Below, in pieces: positions 25,196 through 36,423 of a stretch of 38,208 bases of DNA. The notes under the pieces are model-generated. The model made no database searches and was not told where the DNA came from. It saw only the letters and a list, made by a program, of their open reading frames with translations. Where the stretch lies: assembly GCA_001790955.1 (NCBI GenBank), contig MGDP01000149.1, forward strand, positions 1 to 38,208. Reading direction: 5' to 3'. This stretch comes from Candidatus Tectomicrobia bacterium RIFCSPLOWO2_12_FULL_69_37. Its GTDB lineage: Bacteria; UBA8248. The position numbers and the translations under genes were made by a program. Within the stretch, counting starts at the first letter, position 1. Every line of letters starts with the position of its first letter.

Positions 25196-26107
25196 TCATC
25201 TCCCCGCCGGGGCCTGGCCCGCCCGGGGCGGGACGGAAGCGCCCGGCACGTCCTGCCAGAAGACCGCCGACACCACTCCTCCTTCGGCCCGGACGATGGC
25301 CTGGGTGTGCACCCTGCCGTCCGCGGTCCGGTAGCCGAAGGGAAGGATCACGACCGAGACGCCGCCGCTCGACTGCTCGGTGAAGCCCTGGTCCCACAGC
25401 AGGCTTTCCTGGAAATAGACGTAGCCGTTGGAGAGGCGGAACATGCTCCCGCCCAGCGCCAGCCGCAGCTCCGCGCTCGTCCACCCGGAACGGATGCGCC
25501 GGAGGTGGGGCCGGATGCGCTCGAAGGCGTCCCTCCCCTGGAGGCGGGCGCGGTAGAAATCCCGGATCATGCGGTTCTCCTCCTCGAGCGTGTGCGAGGA
25601 GGCGGTGAGCTCGGCCGGGGGGCCGGGCGGGCTGTGGCCCTCGGGCCAGCCGGAGCGGACGATGCGCGCCACCTTGCCCTTCTCCACGACGACGGCGAAG
25701 CGCTCCTTCAGCCGGTAGCTCTCCATGTAGCCAAAGGCGTACTCCTCGATCTCGGCCCCCCCGGCGGTGTTCCGCGCCGAGATGTCCGGCATCCAGCCGT
25801 CGCCCATCACCACCTGGCTGTCCCCCTCCCCGAGGGGGGTCAGCTTCATCGCCTTGAGGAAGTCGGCCCGAGGCATGCCCAGCTTGACGTCCCTGCTCAG
25901 GCGCTGCTCGGCGGCGACGAAGGACTCCCGCGAGAGGGAGAGCGGCACCCAGGGCATCTGGCCCAGCATCGCGAGCCGGTCGGCCTTCTGCTGGCCCTCC
26001 GCCAGGTTCTGGTCCCCGGACAGGCTCCTGTAGGCGCCGCAGCCGGCGAGGAGAAGGAGGCTAAGGAACCCGGCGGCGAGCTTGGGCGCGCGATCGGTGA
26101 TGGCCAT
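25196..26107 (-). CDS. Lipoprotein of unknown function in the Tad operon
   Basis: A 303-aa lipoprotein with signal peptide and lipobox LLAGC (Cys23). The mature part includes VKLGMPRADFLKAMKLTPLGEG, somewhat like the start of SmpA/BamE-type modules, then FAVVVEKGKVARIVRSGWP and a beta-rich C-terminal half with LALGGSMFRLSNGYVYFQESLLWDQGF. Its start is 4 bases after the stop of the DUF192/methyltransferase gene, so translation is probably coupled. Candidate role (inference): an outer-membrane helper of the CpaC secretin, similar in position to the pilotin-like TadD/RcpB-type lipoproteins of other Tad loci. Sequence alone does not show that. Confidence 0.72.
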   Translation of the reverse strand: MAITDRAPKLAAGFLSLLLLAGCGAYRSLSGDQNLAEGQQKADRLAMLGQMPWVPLSLSRESFVAAEQRLSRDVKLGMPRADFLKAMKLTPLGEGDSQVVMGDGWMPDISARNTAGGAEIEEYAFGYMESYRLKERFAVVVEKGKVARIVRSGWPEGHSPPGPPAELTASSHTLEEENRMIRDFYRARLQGRDAFERIRPHLRRIRSGWTSAELRLALGGSMFRLSNGYVYFQESLLWDQGFTEQSSGGVSVVILPFGYRTADGRVHTQAIVRAEGGVVSAVFWQDVPGASVPPRAGQAPAGR

Positions 26108-26111
26108 TTCC

Positions 26112-27107
26112 TCACACCAGGCGGGGGATGTAGCGGGCGCGCACCCGCTGGGAATAGGACCGGTAGGCCTCCTCCCGGGCGAGCAGGCGCTCCTCGGCCA
26201 GCGCCCGCAGATGGAGGCTCACGAACAGCCCGGCCGTGACGGCCGCGTTGCGCGCGGTGAAGTTGGCGAGGAGGAAGCACGCGAAGAACGCCATCTCCGC
26301 CCCGTAGAGCGGGTGGCGGACCCAGCGGTAGAGCCCCGCCGTCTTGAGCCCCCGGTCGGCCGGCACCAGCCCGAAGGAGCGGCCCAGGCTCAGGTAGGCG
26401 AGAAAGACCCCTCCCAGGCACAGCGCAAGGAGGAGGGAGGCCCACCCCGCGGGGATCAGGGAGGCCCCGGGGGCGGGCAGCAGGGAGAAGCTCAGGAGGA
26501 CGCTGAGGAAGGTGACCACCCGATCCTTCGCCAGGCCGGTCAGCCGCTTCTCCTCCCGCCGCGTGACGAACAAGAGCGCGATGAGGGTGTTCACCGCGAA
26601 GAGCATCGCGGCCGCGGCCCCGCCCTCCCCGCGCGCCAGCGCCGGCAGGAGGCGGGCGGCCAGGTAGAGCCAGAAGCCCCCGAGCGCCAGGTTGGCCGCC
26701 CAGCGGCCCGCGAGGCGGCCCCGCCCCCTCGCCCGGGTCCAGCCGGCCATGTCCACCCGCTGGCCCTCCCGGAAGCCCCGGGCGGCGAGCGTCCCCGCGG
26801 GGAGCTCCAGCACCCCCCGGGCGCCCGGCACCCAGCGGGTCACCCGCCCGGGGGCGAGGGCGTGGAAGAGGGCGACCGCCCTGCCTTCCTCGTCGAGGAA
26901 GGCGGCGTCGATGGGCACCCGCATGAAGAAGGTGTGGATCGAGGCGCAGGGCGCGATGTAGAGGCCCTCGCCCTCTCCCAGCGCGCGGCCCATCAGGCCG
27001 AGCAGGCGGGGGAAGAACGCGTCCGCCACCTCCACGCGCGAGGCCAGGCGCACGGGGAGAGCCGCGGCGTCCTCGAGCGGGGCCCTCTCCGCCACGCGGC
27101 CGGTCAC
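26112..27107 (-). CDS. DUF192 domain fused to an ICMT/NnrU-like membrane methyltransferase domain
   Basis: A 331-aa fusion. Residues about 15-122 are a DUF192 domain: RLLGLMGR, then LYIAPCASIHTFFMRVPIDAAFLDEEGRAV and GARGVLELPAGTLAA are its hallmark segments. The rest is a membrane domain with about five helices that ends like isoprenylcysteine carboxyl methyltransferase or PEMT enzymes: GLKTAGLYRWVRHPLYGAEM followed by ALAEERLLAREEAYRSYSQRV. The GTG at 27107 overlaps the tadC stop by four bases (GTGA) with GGAGGGG upstream. The frame stays open much farther upstream, but only as a shadow of tadC. Reaction and substrate are unknown. Confidence 0.85.
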   Translation of the reverse strand: MTGRVAERAPLEDAAALPVRLASRVEVADAFFPRLLGLMGRALGEGEGLYIAPCASIHTFFMRVPIDAAFLDEEGRAVALFHALAPGRVTRWVPGARGVLELPAGTLAARGFREGQRVDMAGWTRARGRGRLAGRWAANLALGGFWLYLAARLLPALARGEGGAAAAMLFAVNTLIALLFVTRREEKRLTGLAKDRVVTFLSVLLSFSLLPAPGASLIPAGWASLLLALCLGGVFLAYLSLGRSFGLVPADRGLKTAGLYRWVRHPLYGAEMAFFACFLLANFTARNAAVTAGLFVSLHLRALAEERLLAREEAYRSYSQRVRARYIPRLV

Positions 27108-28063
27108 TTGAAGGCCCCTCCCGCCCCGCCGGCGATGATGTTCACGGCGGCGGGCCCCAGCAGCATGACGAAGATGGCCGGGAAGATGAAGAAGATCAGG
27201 GGGAAGAGGAGCTTGACCGTGGTCTTGGCGGCCTGCTCCTCGATGCGCTGGCGCCGGGCCATGCGGAAGCTGTCGGAGAAGACGCGCAGGGAGACGGCGA
27301 TCGATGTCCCGAAGCGCTCGGCCTGGATCAGCATGGAGACGAGGTTGTCCACGTCCGGCAGCCCGATGCGCCAAGCCATCCGGCTGAGGGCGTGCTCGTG
27401 AGCCTGGCCCGCGGAGAGCTCGCGGCTGAGCGACGTCAGCTCGCGGCTGAGCTCGGGGGCGCTGAGCTGGAGCTCCTGGCCCACCCGCGCCATCGCGCCG
27501 TCCAGGGCCAGTCCCGCCTCCACGCACACGACGAGGAGGTCCACCATGTTGGGCAGGGCGGAGGCGATCTTCTCCTGCCGGCTCTTCACCACCCGGCTGA
27601 GCCCGATGTTGGGGATGATCAGCCCCCCGACGAGCGCGCCCGCGGAATAAAGGATCATCTTGCTCAGCGGCGCCCCGGCGATCAGGGTGCCGAGGGCCGC
27701 GACGGCGGCCGCCCCCAGCGCGATCATCATCCGCATGCCGTGGAAGGAGGCGGCGTGGTGGGGGGAGGAGTAGCCCGCCATGGCCAGCCGGTGGACGGTG
27801 TCGTCGCTTCCGCCCTCCAGGAACGACCGCGCCGAGTTCCCCAGGCGCAGCATCATGCGGCTGAGGAGCCCCCCTCTCTTCTTCTTCGCCTTCGGCTCGG
27901 GGGCCGCGGCGCCCTTGCCGGCCTGGGCGGCGGCCTCGCCGCCCGCCAGGGCCTGGAGGCGGAGCCGGGAAACGGACTGCTCCGGCGTGAGGGCCGTCAC
28001 ACCGACGAAGGCGAGCACTCCGCCCGCGGCGCACACGAGAATCACGATCAAGAGGCCGTCCAT
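27104..28063 (-). CDS. tadC: Tad pilus inner-membrane platform protein TadC (GspF family)
   Basis: A 319-aa GspF-domain protein, partner of TadB in the membrane platform that the CpaF ATPase drives. Helices are at residues 5-25, about 108-128, 133-152 and 283-305. The GspF core holds LPNMVDLLVVCVEAGLALDGAMARVG and FGTSIAVSLRVFSDSFRMARRQRIEEQAAK, both characteristic. An unusually long, basic N-terminal linker (KAKKKRGG near 58-65) precedes it. The ATG at 28063 is 7 bases after the tadB stop. Confidence 0.93.
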   Translation of the reverse strand: MDGLLIVILVCAAGGVLAFVGVTALTPEQSVSRLRLQALAGGEAAAQAGKGAAAPEPKAKKKRGGLLSRMMLRLGNSARSFLEGGSDDTVHRLAMAGYSSPHHAASFHGMRMMIALGAAAVAALGTLIAGAPLSKMILYSAGALVGGLIIPNIGLSRVVKSRQEKIASALPNMVDLLVVCVEAGLALDGAMARVGQELQLSAPELSRELTSLSRELSAGQAHEHALSRMAWRIGLPDVDNLVSMLIQAERFGTSIAVSLRVFSDSFRMARRQRIEEQAAKTTVKLLFPLIFFIFPAIFVMLLGPAAVNIIAGGAGGAFK

Positions 28064-28070
28064 CGCCCGC

Positions 28071-29009
28071 TCACATCTTGATGTTGACGATCTTGCGCAT
28101 TACCAAGAAGCCCAGGAGCTGCATCATGAGGGCGCCGCCCAGGAGGTAGTGCCCCATCTTGTACTGGAACATCGGCTGGAGGTACTTGGGGTTCATGGCG
28201 AACATGCCCATCCCCAGGAAGAACGGGAGCCCCCCGACGACGTAGCCGCCCATGCGGGCCTGGCCGGTCAGGGCCTTCACCTGGCCGCGCATCCGCTTGC
28301 GCTCGAGCACGACGGAGTTCAGCCGGTCCAGGATCTCCGTCAGGTTGCCGCCCGTCTCCCGCTGGATGAGCATGGCCGTCGCCATGAACTGGAGGTCCAC
28401 GCTCGGGGTGCGGTGGAGCATCTGCTGGAAGGCCTGGCCGATGGGGACGCCCAGCCGCATGGAGTCGTTCATCTGGGCGAAGTCCTCCCGGCAGCCGACG
28501 GGCCCCTCGGTGCCGACGATGGACAGCGCGGAGTTGAGGGCGTGCCCGGCGCGCAGGGCGTTCACGATGAACTGGAGCGCGGTGGGGAGGTCGTACTCCA
28601 GCTTCGCCATCCGCTTCTTGAACTTCATGTGGAGCAGCAGGTAGGGGATGGCGCCGCCGAACAAGAGGCCCAGGAGGAAGCCGGCCTTGCCCTGGACCGG
28701 CCCGCCGATGAGGGCCCCGAACAGGGCGAAAACCCCGACCCGGATGAAGAGCGGCCGGAGTTCCACCGGCACGCCCGCCCGCAGGAGCTTCACCCGGGTG
28801 AACTCGAGGAAGCCCTCGAGCACGCCCGTGCGGCCGCGGGAGGACGCGCGGAGCATCTGCCCCGACTCCTCCTTCTCGGAGGCGCGCTTCTCGCTGAAGA
28901 TCTCCAGCCGGCTCTGGAGAGGGTGTTTCTGGCGGCGGAGGACGAGCATGATCACGCCCACCCCCAGGCCGAAGAGGATCATCAGGGCAACGAAGGCGCG
29001 GGGGTCCAT
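28071..29009 (-). CDS. tadB: Tad pilus inner-membrane platform protein TadB (GspF family)
   Basis: A 312-aa GspF-domain protein. Characteristic segments are LPTALQFIVNALRAGHALNSALSIVG, LGVPIGQAFQQMLHRT, and the exit loop IQRETGGNLTEILDRLNSVVLERKRMRGQVKALTGQ. Hydrophobic helices occur at the N-terminus, about residues 90-122 and in the C-terminal 60 residues. The ATG is 2 bases after the cpaF stop, so the genes are translationally linked. Confidence 0.94.
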   Translation of the reverse strand: MDPRAFVALMILFGLGVGVIMLVLRRQKHPLQSRLEIFSEKRASEKEESGQMLRASSRGRTGVLEGFLEFTRVKLLRAGVPVELRPLFIRVGVFALFGALIGGPVQGKAGFLLGLLFGGAIPYLLLHMKFKKRMAKLEYDLPTALQFIVNALRAGHALNSALSIVGTEGPVGCREDFAQMNDSMRLGVPIGQAFQQMLHRTPSVDLQFMATAMLIQRETGGNLTEILDRLNSVVLERKRMRGQVKALTGQARMGGYVVGGLPFFLGMGMFAMNPKYLQPMFQYKMGHYLLGGALMMQLLGFLVMRKIVNIKM

Positions 29010-29011
29010 TC

Positions 29012-30484
29012 TCAGTCCCCCCAGCTCGATTTCTTCTGCTGCGGCTCCTTGGCCTTCTCCGCGGCGAGGTCCGCGTCGAAGTTGGGCAGCGTCTGGCCGT
29101 GCGCGATGAGCTTGTCGGAGACCTTGGGGCGGATGCCGGTGGCGCGGTGCTTGCCCTGGATCTTGCCCCCGGGCGTGTCGCTGTGGCCCTCAAAGACGTA
29201 GATGTCCTGCATGGTGACGGTCTCGCCCTCCATGCCGGTGATCTCGGTGATGTGGGTCACTCTGCGGGAGCCGTCCATGAGCCGCGCGGCCTGGACGATG
29301 ATGTGGACGGCCGAGGCGATCTGGGCGCGGATGGCCTTCTCGGGCAGGTCCATCCCCGCCATGGCCACCATCACGCCCAGGCGGCTGACGGCGTCGCGCG
29401 GGGTGTTGGCGTGGAGGGTGGTGAGGGAGCCGTCGTGGCCGGTGTTCATGGCCTGGAGCATGTCCAGCGCCTCGCCGGACCGGCACTCGCCCACGATGAT
29501 GCGGTCGGGCCGCATGCGGAGGGTGTTCTTGAGCAGGTCCCGCATGGAGACCTCGCCCTTCCCCTCGACGTTGGGGGGGCGCGTCTCCAGGCGCACCACG
29601 TGCTCCTGCTGGAGCCGGAGCTCGGCCGAGTCCTCGATGGTGATGATGCGCTCGTCGTTGCCGATGAAGCCGGAGAGCATGTTGAGGAGGGTCGTCTTGC
29701 CCGAGCCCGTGCCGCCCGAGACGACGACGTTGGCGGCGCCGCCCACGCAGGCCTTGAGGAAGGTGATCATGTCGGGCGTCACGGAGCCGAACTTGATGAG
29801 GTCCTCCGGCTTGAGCGCGTGCTTGGGGAAGCGGCGGACGGTGAGCGAGGAACCGTCCAGGGCGAGCGGCGGGATGATGGCGTTCACCCGGCTCCCGTCG
29901 TGGAGGCGGGCGTCCACCATGGGCGTGCTCTCGTCCACCCGGCGCCCCACGCGGGTGACGATGCGGTCGATGATGCGGCGCAGGTGGCCCTCGTCGCGGA
30001 ACTTCACCCCGGAGAGGACGAGCTTGCCCTTCTGCTCGATGTACACGTTGTCCTTGCCGTTCACCATGATCTCGCTGATGCTCTCGTTCCGCAGCAGGGG
30101 CTCCATCGGGCCCAGGCCGAGGAGCTCGTCCATCAGCTCGTCGACCATCCGGGTGGTCGACTCGCCGAACTCGGAGGGCAGGTTCTCGACCACGAACTGG
30201 TGGATGGAGGGGCGCAGCCGGTCGGCGAGCTCGTGCTCGGCGAGGCCCTCCACCTCGTCGAAGTTCAGCCGGCCGAGGAGCTCGCCGTGGAGCTCCTCCT
30301 TGAGGTCCTCCCAGCGCTGCCGCAGGGAGGCCGGGACGGCGCCCGGGCCCTGCCCCCCGTCAGCCCCGGCCGCCGCGGGAGCGGCCTTCTCCTGCTTGGC
30401 CTTCGCCTCGGGCGCCTTTCCCTTGGCGCCCAGGCGGGACATGAACCCGCTTTCCTCGGAGAGGGACTTGGTGGTCTCGTTCAT
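29012..30484 (-). CDS. cpaF: Tad pilus assembly ATPase CpaF/TadA
   Basis: A 490-aa secretion ATPase of the VirB11/GspE superfamily that powers pilin assembly at the cytoplasmic face. Walker A GGTGSGKTT is at residues 257-265, the Asp box ITIEDSAEL at 281-289, Walker B IIVGECR at 329-335 and the His box GHDGSLTTLHAN at 349-360. Most homologues have GEVRGGEA where this has GECRSGEA. A low-complexity Ala/Lys/Glu-rich N-terminus (about 20-48) precedes the conserved NTD. The ATG overlaps the cpaE stop (ATGA). It is likely to form a hexamer. Confidence 0.96.
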   Translation of the reverse strand: MNETTKSLSEESGFMSRLGAKGKAPEAKAKQEKAAPAAAGADGGQGPGAVPASLRQRWEDLKEELHGELLGRLNFDEVEGLAEHELADRLRPSIHQFVVENLPSEFGESTTRMVDELMDELLGLGPMEPLLRNESISEIMVNGKDNVYIEQKGKLVLSGVKFRDEGHLRRIIDRIVTRVGRRVDESTPMVDARLHDGSRVNAIIPPLALDGSSLTVRRFPKHALKPEDLIKFGSVTPDMITFLKACVGGAANVVVSGGTGSGKTTLLNMLSGFIGNDERIITIEDSAELRLQQEHVVRLETRPPNVEGKGEVSMRDLLKNTLRMRPDRIIVGECRSGEALDMLQAMNTGHDGSLTTLHANTPRDAVSRLGVMVAMAGMDLPEKAIRAQIASAVHIIVQAARLMDGSRRVTHITEITGMEGETVTMQDIYVFEGHSDTPGGKIQGKHRATGIRPKVSDKLIAHGQTLPNFDADLAAEKAKEPQQKKSSWGD

Positions 30485-31683
30485 GAGGCCTTCCTCCCGA
30501 AGGAGAGGAGCCCGCGCTTCTTGGGCTGGGGCTTGGGCGCCCCGAAGCCCAGGTCGGCGCGCATCTTTTCGGCCAGGCCGGCCACGGCCTTGGCGAAGGG
30601 GCCCTTCGCCGCGGGATCCGTCGTGGGCGGGATCCCGCGGTTCGCGGCTTCGATCAGGCGGGCGTGCTCCTCGGGGACGGCGAAGTAGGCCGGCCGGCTG
30701 AGGGCCTGGGCGGCCTCCTCCGGCTGCAGCTCGCTCTCCTTGGACACGCGGTTGAAGACGAGCGCCACCTTCTCCTGCGGGTACTCGAAGCGGGAGAAGA
30801 GCCGCAGGGACTCCCGCGCCTTGGCCAGGGAGGGAATCAGGGGCTCGGTCACGAGCAGGATCTGGTCCGACTCGTCCAGCGCGGCCACGAGGCGGTCGCC
30901 CACCCACTTGGGGGTGTCCACCAGCAGGAGGTCGAAGCGGTCCCGGAGGATCTTGATGATCCGGCCCACCATCTCGGCCGTGATGTTCAGGCCGTCGTGG
31001 AGAATGGGCGGGGAGGCGATGACCCGCACGCCGCTCTCGTGGTTGGTGATGCGGCTCAGGAGCTCGTCGCGCAGGGCGTTCGCGTCGTCGACCGGGACGT
31101 CGCCCAGCTTGCCCAGGGTCTGGGTCGGCTGGAGGTTCATCAAGGAGGCGACCACGCCGCACTGGAGGTCCAGGTCCAGCACCCCCACCCGCAGTCCTCC
31201 CTGGTGGTTGAGCGCCAGGGCGAGGTTGACGGCGAGCGTGCTCACCCCCGTGCCTCCCTTGCCGGAGTAGAGGGCCACCACTTTGCCCTTCGCGCCCTCG
31301 GGCCCCTGGATGTGGCGGAGGCCGTTGTCGAAGGCCTCGTGGAGGGCGCCGGCCTCGGGCGGGATGGTGAGGATGTCGTTGAAGCGGGCCTGCATCGCCC
31401 CCCGGAGGAACTCCGGGTCGCCCGCCTGGCTGGAGGTGGCGCCGGCGATCATCCACCCCGGGGTCAGCCCCAGGTCGGCCAGGCGCCCCTCGGCCTCGGC
31501 GGGGCCGGCGGCGCAGGCCACGAGGGCGATGTGAGGGGTCTGGCCGTCCAGGGCGCCACGGGCGTCGTCGAGGCTTCCGGCGTAGACGACCTTCCCCTTC
31601 CCCTCCAGCATGGGCGGGACCGCCTTCAGGTTCCCCTGGGCATCGTCCAGGATGAGCACCAGGGCGGTGAACGCCGCGCTCAT
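30481..31683 (-). CDS. cpaE: Tad pilus assembly/localisation protein CpaE/TadZ (atypical MinD/ParA ATPase)
   Basis: A 400-aa protein with an N-terminal degenerate receiver-like domain (about 5-125) and a ParA/MinD-type domain from residue 134. The Walker A region reads YSGKGGTGVSTLAVNLA (139-155): the signature Lys142 is there, but Val147 sits where the P-loop lysine of active MinD would be. CpaE/TadZ proteins often have this kind of deviation, so it may bind nucleotide without hydrolysing it well. LDLDLQCG and LLLVDTPKW are the other motifs. It positions the pilus in the cell. The start overlaps the cpaC stop by four bases (ATGA). Confidence 0.93.
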   Translation of the reverse strand: MSAAFTALVLILDDAQGNLKAVPPMLEGKGKVVYAGSLDDARGALDGQTPHIALVACAAGPAEAEGRLADLGLTPGWMIAGATSSQAGDPEFLRGAMQARFNDILTIPPEAGALHEAFDNGLRHIQGPEGAKGKVVALYSGKGGTGVSTLAVNLALALNHQGGLRVGVLDLDLQCGVVASLMNLQPTQTLGKLGDVPVDDANALRDELLSRITNHESGVRVIASPPILHDGLNITAEMVGRIIKILRDRFDLLLVDTPKWVGDRLVAALDESDQILLVTEPLIPSLAKARESLRLFSRFEYPQEKVALVFNRVSKESELQPEEAAQALSRPAYFAVPEEHARLIEAANRGIPPTTDPAAKGPFAKAVAGLAEKMRADLGFGAPKPQPKKRGLLSFGRKAS

Positions 31684-33032
31684 CGCCTGCTCCCCTGGGG
31701 GCCCGGGGCGGCGGGCGCCGGCACGCGGCCCACCCGGAACCCGCTGTGGGGCAGGACGAGTTCGGGCGACCGCTTCGTCCGGATGACGGTGGGCGTCACG
31801 AGCACCACGAGCTCGGTCTTGTCGTCCGAGAAGTCCCGGCTCTGGAACAGCTGGCCCAGGATGGGCACGTCCCCGATGAAGGGAAGCTGGGCCATGTTCC
31901 GCTTCTGGTTCTCGGAGAGGAGCCCCGAGATGGGCATGGACTGCCCGTCCCTCAGCACCACCTCGGTCTTGGTGTTGCTGGTCTTGAAGCCGGGGACGGT
32001 GAAGCCGGAGACCACGACCGCGATGGTGTTGTCGATGGCGCTGACCTCGGGCTCCACCGACATTTCGACCAGGCCCGACTTGAGCACCTTGGGCTTGAAC
32101 TTGAGCTGGATGCCGAAGCGCTTGTACATGATGGTCACGCTGCCGTCCTGGCCGGGCACCGGGATGGGCACCTCGCCGCCGACCAGGAAGTTCCCCTCCT
32201 TCCCACTCATCACGCGGAGGTTCGGCTCGGCCAGGGTGCGGATGTAGCCCTTGTCCTGGAGGGCCCGGATGAACAAGCCCTGCGTCCGCGCATTGGTCCC
32301 CACGAAAATGTTGAGCAGGCTGCCGAAGGAGATGTCCGGCCCGACATCCGTGGTCTGGGGCTGGAGGAAGGTGCCGCGGGCCGAGAAGCCCGGCGCGCCC
32401 GGGAGGAGGAGGATATCGTCCCGGTTCAGGCTCGAGCGGCGGATAAAGCCCAGCCCCACTTGAATGGCCCCGGAGCGCGAGATCTCGGCGAAGTGGACCT
32501 TGAGCAGGACCTGGGGGACCTCGTCCACCTGGAGGTTGTCCACCACCTTCTTGGGCGCCACCGCCTCGGCGAGCCCCAGGGCGACGGTGCGCGACTCCTC
32601 CGAGCTCACCGATCCCGAGAGCACCACGCTGCTGCCCACCTGCTCGACCTTGATCTGCTCCTTGGGGAGCAGGTTGGCGATCTGCGCGCTCAGCTGCTGG
32701 GCCAGGGGGTCCTCGGCGGTGACCGAGAGGTCGTAGGAGAAGACGCCGTCCCGCTCGTCCCAGACGATGAGGGTGGTGACGCCCTTCGCCTTCCCGTTGA
32801 GGACCACCTCCTGCGGGCTCACCACCACCACCTCCGCCACCTTGGGCTCGGCCAGCGACACGCGGCGGATGCGGCCCTCGAACTTGAGGACGAGGCTCTT
32901 CCCGGCCGCCACGCTCACCTTGCCGCCGGGGGGGGCCGGGGCGGCCCAGGCCGGGGAGGCCGCCCCCCACGCGAAGGCCAGGAGAAGGGCCGCCGCGAAG
33001 AGGCGGAAGCGGCTTTCCACGGGGGTCCTCAT
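31680..33032 (-). CDS. cpaC: Tad secretin CpaC/RcpA
   Basis: A 450-aa outer-membrane secretin, the pore for the Flp pilus. A signal peptide ends at SPAWA-APA (about residues 25-31). The periplasmic part includes a pilus-assembly N-terminal domain (SVAAGKSLVLKFEGRIRRVSLAEP) and a BON-like segment (IKVEQVGSSVVLSGSVSS). The secretin core contains GGEVPIPVPGQDGSVTIMYKRFGIQLKF and IGDVPILGQLFQSRDFSDDKTELVVLVTP, near-consensus secretin signature. The ATG at 33032 has GAACT-rich upstream but no strong SD; it lies only 1 base after the cpaB stop, so coupling is likely. Confidence 0.95.
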   Translation of the reverse strand: MRTPVESRFRLFAAALLLAFAWGAASPAWAAPAPPGGKVSVAAGKSLVLKFEGRIRRVSLAEPKVAEVVVVSPQEVVLNGKAKGVTTLIVWDERDGVFSYDLSVTAEDPLAQQLSAQIANLLPKEQIKVEQVGSSVVLSGSVSSEESRTVALGLAEAVAPKKVVDNLQVDEVPQVLLKVHFAEISRSGAIQVGLGFIRRSSLNRDDILLLPGAPGFSARGTFLQPQTTDVGPDISFGSLLNIFVGTNARTQGLFIRALQDKGYIRTLAEPNLRVMSGKEGNFLVGGEVPIPVPGQDGSVTIMYKRFGIQLKFKPKVLKSGLVEMSVEPEVSAIDNTIAVVVSGFTVPGFKTSNTKTEVVLRDGQSMPISGLLSENQKRNMAQLPFIGDVPILGQLFQSRDFSDDKTELVVLVTPTVIRTKRSPELVLPHSGFRVGRVPAPAAPGPQGSRR

Positions 33033-33033
33033 T

Positions 33034-34332
33034 CTAGAACTCCGTCTTGGAGCGCTTGCCGCCCTGGAGGATCTCCACCGAATAGGGCGCCCCCGGGCCC
33101 GCGGGCTTGCGGTCCACATCCTTCTTGTCCTTGCCCTCCCGCAGCAGGTCCGTCACCCCCACCGGCTTCAGCTCGCCGCTCTCCTTGTCCGCGGGGTTGC
33201 GGAGGGAGAGCCACAGCTTGCCCGTGGCCGAGGCGAGGGCGAGCCGGTCGCTCTGTACGGGGCTCACGAGCAGGGTGACGACGGCGACCGGGATGCGGTC
33301 CTTCGCCCCGGCCGACTCCCGGACGCCGCCCGCGGCGAGCACCTCGATGTCCTGGAGGATGGTCTTGGTGACGGCGGTCTTCTGGGTGCCGGTGGCGTTC
33401 TGGCGGGGAACCTCGATCTCGAAGGTGCCGTGCACGTCCACGCGGTTCCCCGGCAGGAGGAAGCCGGCCACGCCGGTCACGTCGGTCACGCTGATGGAGA
33501 AGGCCCGCTGCCCCTGGGGGATCCGGCCCGAGAGGCTTTGGGTGCCCGCAGGAGCGGGCGGCTCCTTCCTCGGCGCGGCCCCGGCGGGCGGGGCGGAGGC
33601 GGCGTGCTTGAAGACGTCGTCCACCGTCACGGGGCTGAGGGCGGGCATGGTCTTGTCCCGCGGGTTGCGCATCGAGAGCCACAGGGAGCCCGCCGTGCCG
33701 GAGAGGGCGAGCTTGGCACTCTCGGCGGGGGTCAGCAGGAGGGTCACCATGGGCACGGACACCCCGCTCTTCTTCTTCCCGGCCTCCTGCACCCCGCCCG
33801 CGGCGAGTACCTCGATATCTTGGAGGATGGCCTGGGTGACCGGGGTCTTCCGCGTGCCGGTGCCCCGGTCGGAGGGCACCTCCATGTCGAAGGTCGCATA
33901 GACGTCTACCCGGCTGCCGGGGAGGAGGAAGCCGGCCACCCCGGTCACGTCGTTCACGCGGATGGTGAAGGCGCGGCGGCCGCCCGGGATGAGGGTGGAG
34001 AGCCCCTCCACGCTGTCCTCGGCGGCAAGCTTGCTCCGGAGCAGGGGCTCGCCCTTCACCATGTTAAAGACGATGATCCGGCCTTCGGCCTCGCTGAGGT
34101 TGCGGATGTAGTCCGGCGTCGCCAGCCGCTCGGGCCAGTCGAGCAGGTCGACGTCGCCCTTGACCAGCTTGACGCCCCGGGTGAGCTCCTTGGCCAGCAC
34201 GGCGACCTTCACGGTCTCTTCGCGCTTCTCGGCGACGGGACTCGTGCGGGCGGACTGGCGCATCACCAGGGCGCCGGCCAGGAGACCGAGCCCAAGGGCC
34301 ACGATCAAGGGAATCAGGAGCCTGCGCCGCAT
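33034..34332 (-). CDS. cpaB: Tad pilus protein CpaB/RcpC with a duplicated RcpC domain
   Basis: A 432-aa periplasmic protein with an N-terminal anchor (about 5-23), a SAF domain (about 42-108), then two similar RcpC units at about 111-241 and 267-398. Both units carry DVTGVAGFLLPG-x-RVDV (first at 128-144, second at 284-300) and ILQDIEVLAAGGV (169-181 and 325-337), and each ends with LWLS-x-RNP. A Pro/Ala-rich linker (about 242-266) separates them. Ordinary CpaB proteins have one unit and are much shorter (often 250-300 aa). The ATG at 34332 is preferred: GGGGGA lies five bases upstream. CpaB supports the secretin and may bind peptidoglycan. See the finding on the duplication. Confidence 0.93.
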   Translation of the reverse strand: MRRRLLIPLIVALGLGLLAGALVMRQSARTSPVAEKREETVKVAVLAKELTRGVKLVKGDVDLLDWPERLATPDYIRNLSEAEGRIIVFNMVKGEPLLRSKLAAEDSVEGLSTLIPGGRRAFTIRVNDVTGVAGFLLPGSRVDVYATFDMEVPSDRGTGTRKTPVTQAILQDIEVLAAGGVQEAGKKKSGVSVPMVTLLLTPAESAKLALSGTAGSLWLSMRNPRDKTMPALSPVTVDDVFKHAASAPPAGAAPRKEPPAPAGTQSLSGRIPQGQRAFSISVTDVTGVAGFLLPGNRVDVHGTFEIEVPRQNATGTQKTAVTKTILQDIEVLAAGGVRESAGAKDRIPVAVVTLLVSPVQSDRLALASATGKLWLSLRNPADKESGELKPVGVTDLLREGKDKKDVDRKPAGPGAPYSVEILQGGKRSKTEF

Positions 34333-34390: not shown

Positions 34391-34816
34391 TCATGCGATG
34401 AAGAAGGAAACCAAGGCGCCCGTGGCCAGGGGCGGGGCGTAGGGGAGCCACTTCTCCCTCCCCCGGACGGCCAGCCAGGCCAGGGCCCACACTCCTCCGA
34501 GAACGGACCCGAGAAGCACGGCCCAGACGGCGCCCACCGGCCCCAGCAGCGAGCCGGCGGCGGCGAGGAGCTTCAGGTCGCCCGCGCCCACATAGCCCAG
34601 GACCACGAACGGGAAAAACACCCCCCCCGCCAGCACCAAGCCCGAGGCCGAGAAGAGGAGGCCCGCCCCTCCTTTCTCCAGCCCCCCGATCAGGAGCCCC
34701 GCCAGGGCGCAGGAGAAGGTGAGGAAGTCGGGGACGCGGCGCGAGCGCAGATCCCAGTAGGTGGCTCCCGAGGCCAGCACCACCAGCACCCCCAGCCGCA
34801 CCGCCCAGAAGCTCAT
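34391..34816 (-). CDS. cpaA: Prepilin peptidase CpaA/TadV (A24 family)
   Basis: A 141-aa inner-membrane aspartic protease that removes the leader of Flp pilin. It has about four to five helices. The catalytic aspartates are visible as Asp22 in YWDLRSRRVPD and Asp80 in GYVGAGDLKLLAA, the GxGD motif. Length is typical for the short CpaA class, which lacks the N-methyltransferase domain of PilD. The ATG at 34816 has no good Shine-Dalgarno sequence, so translation may depend on coupling or on a different start; no better start is visible. A strong hairpin lies between flp and this gene. Confidence 0.9.
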   Translation of the reverse strand: MSFWAVRLGVLVVLASGATYWDLRSRRVPDFLTFSCALAGLLIGGLEKGGAGLLFSASGLVLAGGVFFPFVVLGYVGAGDLKLLAAAGSLLGPVGAVWAVLLGSVLGGVWALAWLAVRGREKWLPYAPPLATGALVSFFIA

Positions 34817-34908
34817 GAAGGAAGGTGCCAGATCGCCCGCCTCTCCCGCCCTGCGTCCCCGGACGCCTTGACCTGCCAAAGCAAACTCCCCCTCATGAAG
34901 CGGCTCCT

Positions 34909-34940
34909 TCCCTTCCCCTGGGCGCCCCCAGGGGAAGGGA
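34909..34940 (-). terminator. 14-bp hairpin between flp and cpaA (attenuator or stabiliser)
   Basis: Arms 34909-34922 and 34927-34940 pair perfectly over 14 bp with a 4-nt loop. No T tract follows on the minus strand, so it is probably not a full terminator. It may raise flp mRNA level relative to the downstream machinery by stabilising or partly ending the transcript. Confidence 0.55.
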
Positions 34941-35012
34941 GGATAGGGCCGCCTCATCTTTTCCGGCGGGGGCTTCCCGCGCCGGGAAAGCGGGGGAAAT
35001 CCCGCTAACGGG

Positions 35013-35174
35013 CTAGAGGGCCGCGACGATCGTGGTGAAGGCGCCCTGGATGCCGCCGGCCAGCGCGGTCAGCGCGGCGATCAGAACGATGGCCACCAGC
35101 GCGATGATCAGGGCGTATTCGACGAGCGACTGTCCCTTTTCACTCCGAGCTCGCTTCATCCACCGCTTGAACAT
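35013..35174 (-). CDS. flp: Flp-family pilin
   Basis: A 53-aa type IVb pilin, the structural subunit of the Tad pilus. A short basic leader (MFKRWMKRARSEKG) is followed by the processing site: cleavage after Gly14, with the conserved Glu19 at position +5 in QSLVEYALII. A hydrophobic helix (20-40) completes it. The ATG at 35174 has AGAAGGG eight bases upstream. It is the first gene of the Tad operon; a sigma54-like element lies about 50 bases upstream. Confidence 0.95.
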   Translation of the reverse strand: MFKRWMKRARSEKGQSLVEYALIIALVAIVLIAALTALAGGIQGAFTTIVAAL

Positions 35175-35224
35175 TGGCCCTTCTCCTCCATGTCGCGCCT
35201 TCGACGAGGCGCTGGGAAAAAATG

Positions 35225-35238
35225 GCACGCAATGTGCC
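35225..35238 (-). promoter_or_regulatory. Sigma54-like promoter element upstream of flp
   Basis: On the minus strand the core reads GGCAC-ATTGC-GTGC with GG at 35238-35237 and GC at 35226-35225. That is exactly ten bases between the GG and GC invariants of -24/-12 promoters. Transcription would begin near 35213, 39 nt before the flp ATG. The -12 element has GTGC instead of TTGC. The sequence is also a perfect dyad (GGCAC/GTGCC), so it could instead be an operator. Confidence 0.45.
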
Positions 35239-35499
35239 GCAGACCACGGTTTCGGACTGTCTCCTCCGCTACGGATGGCGCCCCGGGATGCCATCACCTA
35301 CCTAAATGATATGCCGCTTCCAGGAAAGAGTCATTATTCTACTTCACGTCAATTGAGAGAGTATCGTCACAATCCTTCGGCGATTTCAGCAAATACGCCA
35401 TCCTCGGCATCGCCCGATCCCTTATAGGGGGGATGAGGGACCCCGTGTTTCCAACCTCAGGGCGGCGGAATCTTCGAACTTTTCCTCCTCATATATAGA

Positions 35500-35922: not shown

Positions 35923-36423
35923 ATGCCAACGGCATTCGGGTCCCGGTTCGCCGCCCACCGCCTGGAGCTCCTCAAGCGGGTTTCCCACATCGGGTTCTTC
36001 GATAAGCTGACCGAGGATGAGCGTTATGAGCTCATCACCTACGGGAAGATCACCAGCCACAACGATGGCCAGATCATCTTCGAGGAAGAGGCGCCCAACG
36101 ACCACGTCATGTACTTCGTGGTGAGCGGAGGGGTGGACATCCTCCTCAACGGCTACCGGAACCCCGCGGGCACGGACGTCGTGGCAACCCTCCAGCCGGG
36201 CGAGATCTTCGGCGAGATCGCCATCCTGGACGCCCTTCCGCGCTCCGCCAGCGCGCGGGCCAAGGGCCTCACCACCATCCTGGGGATCGACCTCTTCGCC
36301 CACCGGGACCAAGACCAGAAACCCTCGGCGGACCTGACCATCAAGATCCTCCGGCACATCGCCGAGGGCCTCTGCGCCAAGCTCCGCAACGTCAACAAGG
36401 TGCTCCTCCACGCCAAGGGCTGA
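35923..36423 (+). CDS. Stand-alone cyclic nucleotide-binding domain protein
   Basis: A 166-aa cNMP-binding beta-roll without a DNA-binding or enzymatic domain. The phosphate-binding cassette has FGEIAIL at 96-102 and PRSASARA at 106-113, with Arg107 and Ser108 in the binding positions. A helix-rich stretch precedes the roll (about 10-45) and a C-terminal helical segment follows (about 135-163). GAGGAG is nine bases upstream of the ATG. It is divergent from the Tad operon across the regulatory region, which makes it a candidate sensor for pilus activity, but that is positional inference only. It is similar in design to the 6813 protein, with a distinct sequence outside the cassette. Confidence 0.9.
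   Translation: MPTAFGSRFAAHRLELLKRVSHIGFFDKLTEDERYELITYGKITSHNDGQIIFEEEAPNDHVMYFVVSGGVDILLNGYRNPAGTDVVATLQPGEIFGEIAILDALPRSASARAKGLTTILGIDLFAHRDQDQKPSADLTIKILRHIAEGLCAKLRNVNKVLLHAKG

Follow-up and report, generated by a model that had tools for sequence, protein, structure and literature searches.

A CpaB protein with two RcpC domains in tandem in the Tad pilus operon of a Candidatus Tectomicrobia bacterium

The window analysed here, a stretch of 38,208 nucleotides from a bacterium of the uncultured Candidatus Tectomicrobia, encodes a CpaB protein in which the RcpC domain occurs twice in tandem, a rare and apparently unreported form of a known protein that is best read as an ordinary alignment-complex protein of a Tad (type IVc) pilus to which a further ring module has been added. 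The coordinates given for the gene in an earlier note are exact, but its strand had been left unsaid; it is encoded on the minus strand, with the ATG at 34332 and the stop at 33034-33036 in the ORF call. The gene and its product comprise the following features.

33034-34332, minus strand: cpaB, 432 aa, TM-SAF-RcpC-RcpC-hairpin (ORF, Pfam and NCBIfam; TIGR03177 pilus_cpaB, 311 bits)
34246-34326, minus strand: TM helix at the N-terminus (aa 3-29; sequence, and a helix in both of two AlphaFold models)
34027-34209, minus strand: SAF domain (aa 42-102), equivalent to D1 of RcpC (Pfam PF08666, E 4e-5)
33667-34005, minus strand: RcpC domain unit 1 (aa 110-222), equivalent to D2 (PF16976, 94 bits)
33598-33636, minus strand: L3-like segment and helix after unit 1 (aa 233-245, SPVTVDDVFKHAA; helix 237-243 in both models; repeats at aa 389-400)
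33541-33597, minus strand: Pro/Ala-rich linker (aa 246-264; composition, and low pLDDT in both models)
33199-33537, minus strand: RcpC domain unit 2 (aa 266-378), a second D2 (PF16976, 98 bits)
33133-33168, minus strand: L3-like segment and helix after unit 2 (aa 389-400, KPVGVTDLLREG; helix 393-398 in both models)
33037-33084, minus strand: C-terminal beta-hairpin (aa 417-432), single copy (both models show strands 418-423 and 426-431; corresponds to the hairpin by which RcpC binds the secretin, PMC12307814)

The protein belongs to the CpaB family by all tested features except domain number. It scores 311 bits against TIGR03177 (cut-off 71), and the domain search that the earlier note had proposed places the SAF profile (PF08666) above its cut-off once (24.5 bits against 21) and the RcpC profile (PF16976) twice. 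The order typical of CpaB was also confirmed, with the TM helix (3-29) followed by the SAF domain and a beta-hairpin after RcpC. A single RcpC (D2) domain per chain is the usual, though not the defining, architecture, and two were found here; as the family models do not fix domain number, the protein stays within the CpaB/RcpC family.

That the 432-aa protein carries a duplicated RcpC domain, as the earlier note had read from the sequence, is borne out both by the Pfam matches (one SAF, two RcpC) and by the likeness of the two units, which share 59% identity over 129 aa without gaps (blastp E 7e-54) and 74% identity (26% difference) at the DNA level. Their local alignment score of 389 lies far beyond chance (mean 32, SD 6 and maximum 66 in 1000 shuffles). 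The shared motifs do follow one another in equal order and spacing, with DVTGVAGFLLPG at 128/284, ILQDIEVLAAGG at 169/325 and LWLSxRNP at 217/373 giving a constant period of 156 aa, and the linker between the units is indeed rich in Pro and Ala (12 of the 19 residues of aa 246-264). The repeat also extends beyond the domain itself, covering a short stretch ahead of it (GLSTLIPGGRRAF in unit 1, SLSGRIPQGQRAF in unit 2) and the helix behind it (PVTVDDVF in unit 1, PVGVTDLL in unit 2). Compared with the Pseudomonas aeruginosa RcpC structure (PDB 9gzr, PMC12307814), the repeated segment thus corresponds to D2 and, by position, the L3 helix, while the hairpin is unrepeated.

The structure of P. aeruginosa RcpC, published in 2025, assigns a role to each of these parts (PMC12307814). 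The D1 (SAF) domains are arranged in six dimers, D2 builds a C12 ring around the pilus, and L3 packs against the neighbouring D2 and is required for oligomerisation. Contact with the secretin is made through the C-terminal beta-hairpin, which completes the N-domain sheet of the secretin, and through D2 at the oligomer interface. Two conformations alternate within the dodecamer, whose symmetry is C6. The window protein has in common with RcpC the TM helix, SAF-like D1, RcpC D2, L3 helix, C-terminal hairpin and location in a tad operon, but RcpC has one D2 in 303 aa, compared with two tandem D2+L3 units in the 432 aa of the window protein. Caulobacter crescentus CpaB is likewise an inner membrane-anchored Tad alignment protein that occurs with the secretin CpaC; however, it has two globular domains only and its link to the secretin is proposed to run through a bridging protein, CpaI (PMC13170226).

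The predicted fold is consistent with two RcpC domains. Because MAFFT placed every relative on a single unit, separate alignments were used for each unit instead of a joint one, and the two AlphaFold models were built from different alignments, one deep on unit 1 and the other on unit 2. Both models comprise a TM helix, a SAF domain, an identical string of strands and helices twice over, and then a hairpin (mean pLDDT 68 and 75; pTM 0.45 and 0.54, with low confidence in relative domain positions), and the top PDB match for both in Foldseek was RcpC 9gzr (E 6e-12 for one of them). As the same secondary structure is repeated in both models, units 1 and 2 are predicted to be separate domains, and the possibility raised in the earlier note that the two segments form a single domain is not what the models show. 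Both units retain the residues that form the interprotomer R130-D153 contact in 9gzr, and at the remaining D2-D2 contact positions they agree with single-unit relatives except at 155 (Y or H) and 225 (A or T). Across the wider family, the contact residues of 9gzr are for the most part unconserved, and the case for ring competence therefore rests on two positions together with overall similarity.

The gene is located within an intact tad/cpa operon on the minus strand (flp, cpaA, cpaB, cpaC, cpaE, cpaF, tadB, tadC), where Pfam places it beside the secretin and prepilin peptidase genes.

35013-35297, minus strand: flp, Flp/Fap pilin (Pfam PF04964)
34391-34957, minus strand: cpaA, prepilin peptidase (Pfam PF01478)
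31680-33032, minus strand: cpaC, Tad secretin, 450 aa, beginning one base past the cpaB stop (Pfam T2SS-T3SS_pil_N, BON, Secretin)
30481-31521, minus strand: cpaE/tadZ ATPase, most of the gene (Pfam ParA/AAA_31)
29012-30457, minus strand: cpaF/tadA ATPase (Pfam T2SSE, 220 bits)
28071-29009, minus strand: tadB, platform protein (Pfam T2SSF)
27104-28063, minus strand: tadC, platform protein (Pfam T2SSF)

The CpaC protein aligns over its full length with those of single-unit relatives and is neither duplicated nor enlarged. Two further genes lie close to the operon. Past tadC, a 303-aa protein without a Pfam match (25196-26107, minus strand) has counterparts of 47-49% identity at the equal position in the tad operons of two genomes of the same family (L051, L052); its start, LLLAGCG, resembles a lipoprotein signal, so that it may partner the Tad machine in the envelope. 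Near the flp end, a 166-aa protein with a cyclic-nucleotide-binding domain (35923-36423, plus strand), also found on a contig of the same-genus MAG described below, is a possible regulator.

The tandem architecture recurs in a second MAG of the same genus, JACPCT01 (G002; loci L023/L024), with 83-84% identity, although there the gene is split over two contigs and may have three units. In contrast, the CpaB proteins of two other genomes of the family, G007 (L051:6001-6855, 284 aa) and G008 (L052:7856-8755, 299 aa), have one RcpC domain only, while sharing the operon order and hairpin type and showing approximately 55-58% identity to the window protein across the TM helix, SAF domain and unit 1. 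In a domain tree, the unit 1s of the two tandem species clustered together (support 100/99), as did the unit 2s (99/94), and the duplication therefore predates the split between these species. This settles in part whether the duplication is recent or old, as the earlier note had asked: both units predate the species split, and as to their order relative to the single-unit genera, a topology with all tandem units as one clade is not rejected (AU p 0.417). Together with the two single-unit relatives from the family, all tandem units formed one group apart from the rest (100/100). Between the two species, unit 1 has a dN/dS of 0.21-0.32, unit 2 one of 0.18 and the SAF-containing N-terminal part one of 0.24; both units are thus under purifying selection, and they keep conserved unit-specific differences. 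RcpC has no match in another genome of the genus (G001, 96% complete), nor in most genomes of the family; cpaB is thus patchy in this lineage, as is, probably, the tad locus.

In G002, cpaB runs off the end of contig C48 and the start of contig C59, with a 473-nt overlap spanning unit 1 and the linker (97.7% identity, dS 0.05). The contig ends fall at the borders of the cpaB repeat (L024:4478-4950, and 1-473 of L023 in reverse complement). C48 halts two bases into a Ser codon matching the codon just before the start of unit 1 in C59, and if the two contigs were joined through a single intervening base, they would be in frame with a 474-nt period. As assemblers leave such ends at the borders of tandem repeats, a third, near-identical unit (order SAF-unit 1a-unit 1b-unit 2) has to be considered seriously, although two strain variants of a two-unit gene could also explain the overlap.

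Beyond this genus, a single RcpC unit is the rule, as the earlier note had supposed. PF16976 was searched across approximately 1,300 genomes (386 from many families, the window's own phylum, and samples of five other phyla, one of which was assessed on 150 matches listed), and approximately 439 of these carry RcpC. Among the matches listed, two full PF16976 domains in one ORF were found only in the window genome (G000) and G002, in a survey blind to second domains that have diverged beyond what the model recognises; in 23 long RcpC-bearing ORFs (20 of 416-643 aa and three from other loci), no significant diverged second RcpC was detected, the best match having an i-E of 0.17 (L062). In a plasmid collection, 193 records matched, and all 30 matches listed span less than 700 nt, equivalent to one unit. 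No report of tandem RcpC domains was found in the open-access literature, and the survey yielded no other tandem form, so that two-unit CpaB is neither common nor already described on this evidence.

D2 and the following L3 helix are duplicated in tandem, and the best explanation, to which we give about an even chance, is that a stacked second D2 ring lengthens the periplasmic conduit for the pilus. The chain would presumably oligomerise like P. aeruginosa RcpC, with unit 1 making the D2 ring normally found above the SAF dimers and unit 2, tethered by the Pro/Ala linker, forming a second coaxial ring. This second ring would bear the hairpins that dock onto CpaC, one per chain, and the outcome would be a longer conduit. 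We do not favour the suggestion in the earlier note of two CpaB contacts per secretin subunit, since each chain has one hairpin only, following unit 2, and CpaC is not enlarged.

The main rival, which we consider rather unlikely, is a single-layer ring built from fewer chains, in which both D2 domains lie side by side and six chains fill the twelve-domain ring with one SAF domain and one hairpin for every two D2. Pairs of D2 are already the repeat of the C6 9gzr assembly with its two alternating conformations (PMC12307814), the R130-D153 pair of both units would serve such a ring, and the linker is long enough for this arrangement. However, the SAF domains (six dimers in 9gzr) and the secretin hairpins would both be halved, and the unit-specific conserved differences fit, if weakly, different surroundings for the two units. 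We also think it unlikely that the conduit is unchanged and that the second unit is a lineage-specific duplication, either tolerated or engaged in a side contact (with peptidoglycan or some other envelope protein, for example). Restriction of the tandem form to one genus among the matches listed would suit this explanation, duplicated domains are often neutral initially, and RcpC has been suggested as a possible recruiter of peptidoglycan enzymes (PMC12307814), but the purifying selection on both units in two species and the retention of the ring-contact pair in each argue against it. Lastly, although the window (G000:C149) is one of the 228 contigs in a draft MAG, a second unit derived from a collapsed or chimeric repeat is extremely improbable, as the units differ by 26% in DNA with reading frame and selection intact, and the same unit 1-unit 2 junction on contig C59 of the separate same-genus MAG refutes it.

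The number of D2 units may vary within the genus (two in the window protein, perhaps three in G002), with each adding one ring, giving a modular and evolvable Tad channel length matched to periplasm width, although we regard this extension as tentative and rather doubtful. A gap between the modelled complex (21 nm) and the periplasm (24 nm) has been pointed out (PMC12307814), and 29-33 nm is reported for Caulobacter, with its bridging protein CpaI (PMC13170226). A naturally occurring CpaB that has gained a ring domain provides a ready test of whether adding domains changes the length of the conduit, and bears on how Tad machines cross periplasms of differing widths.
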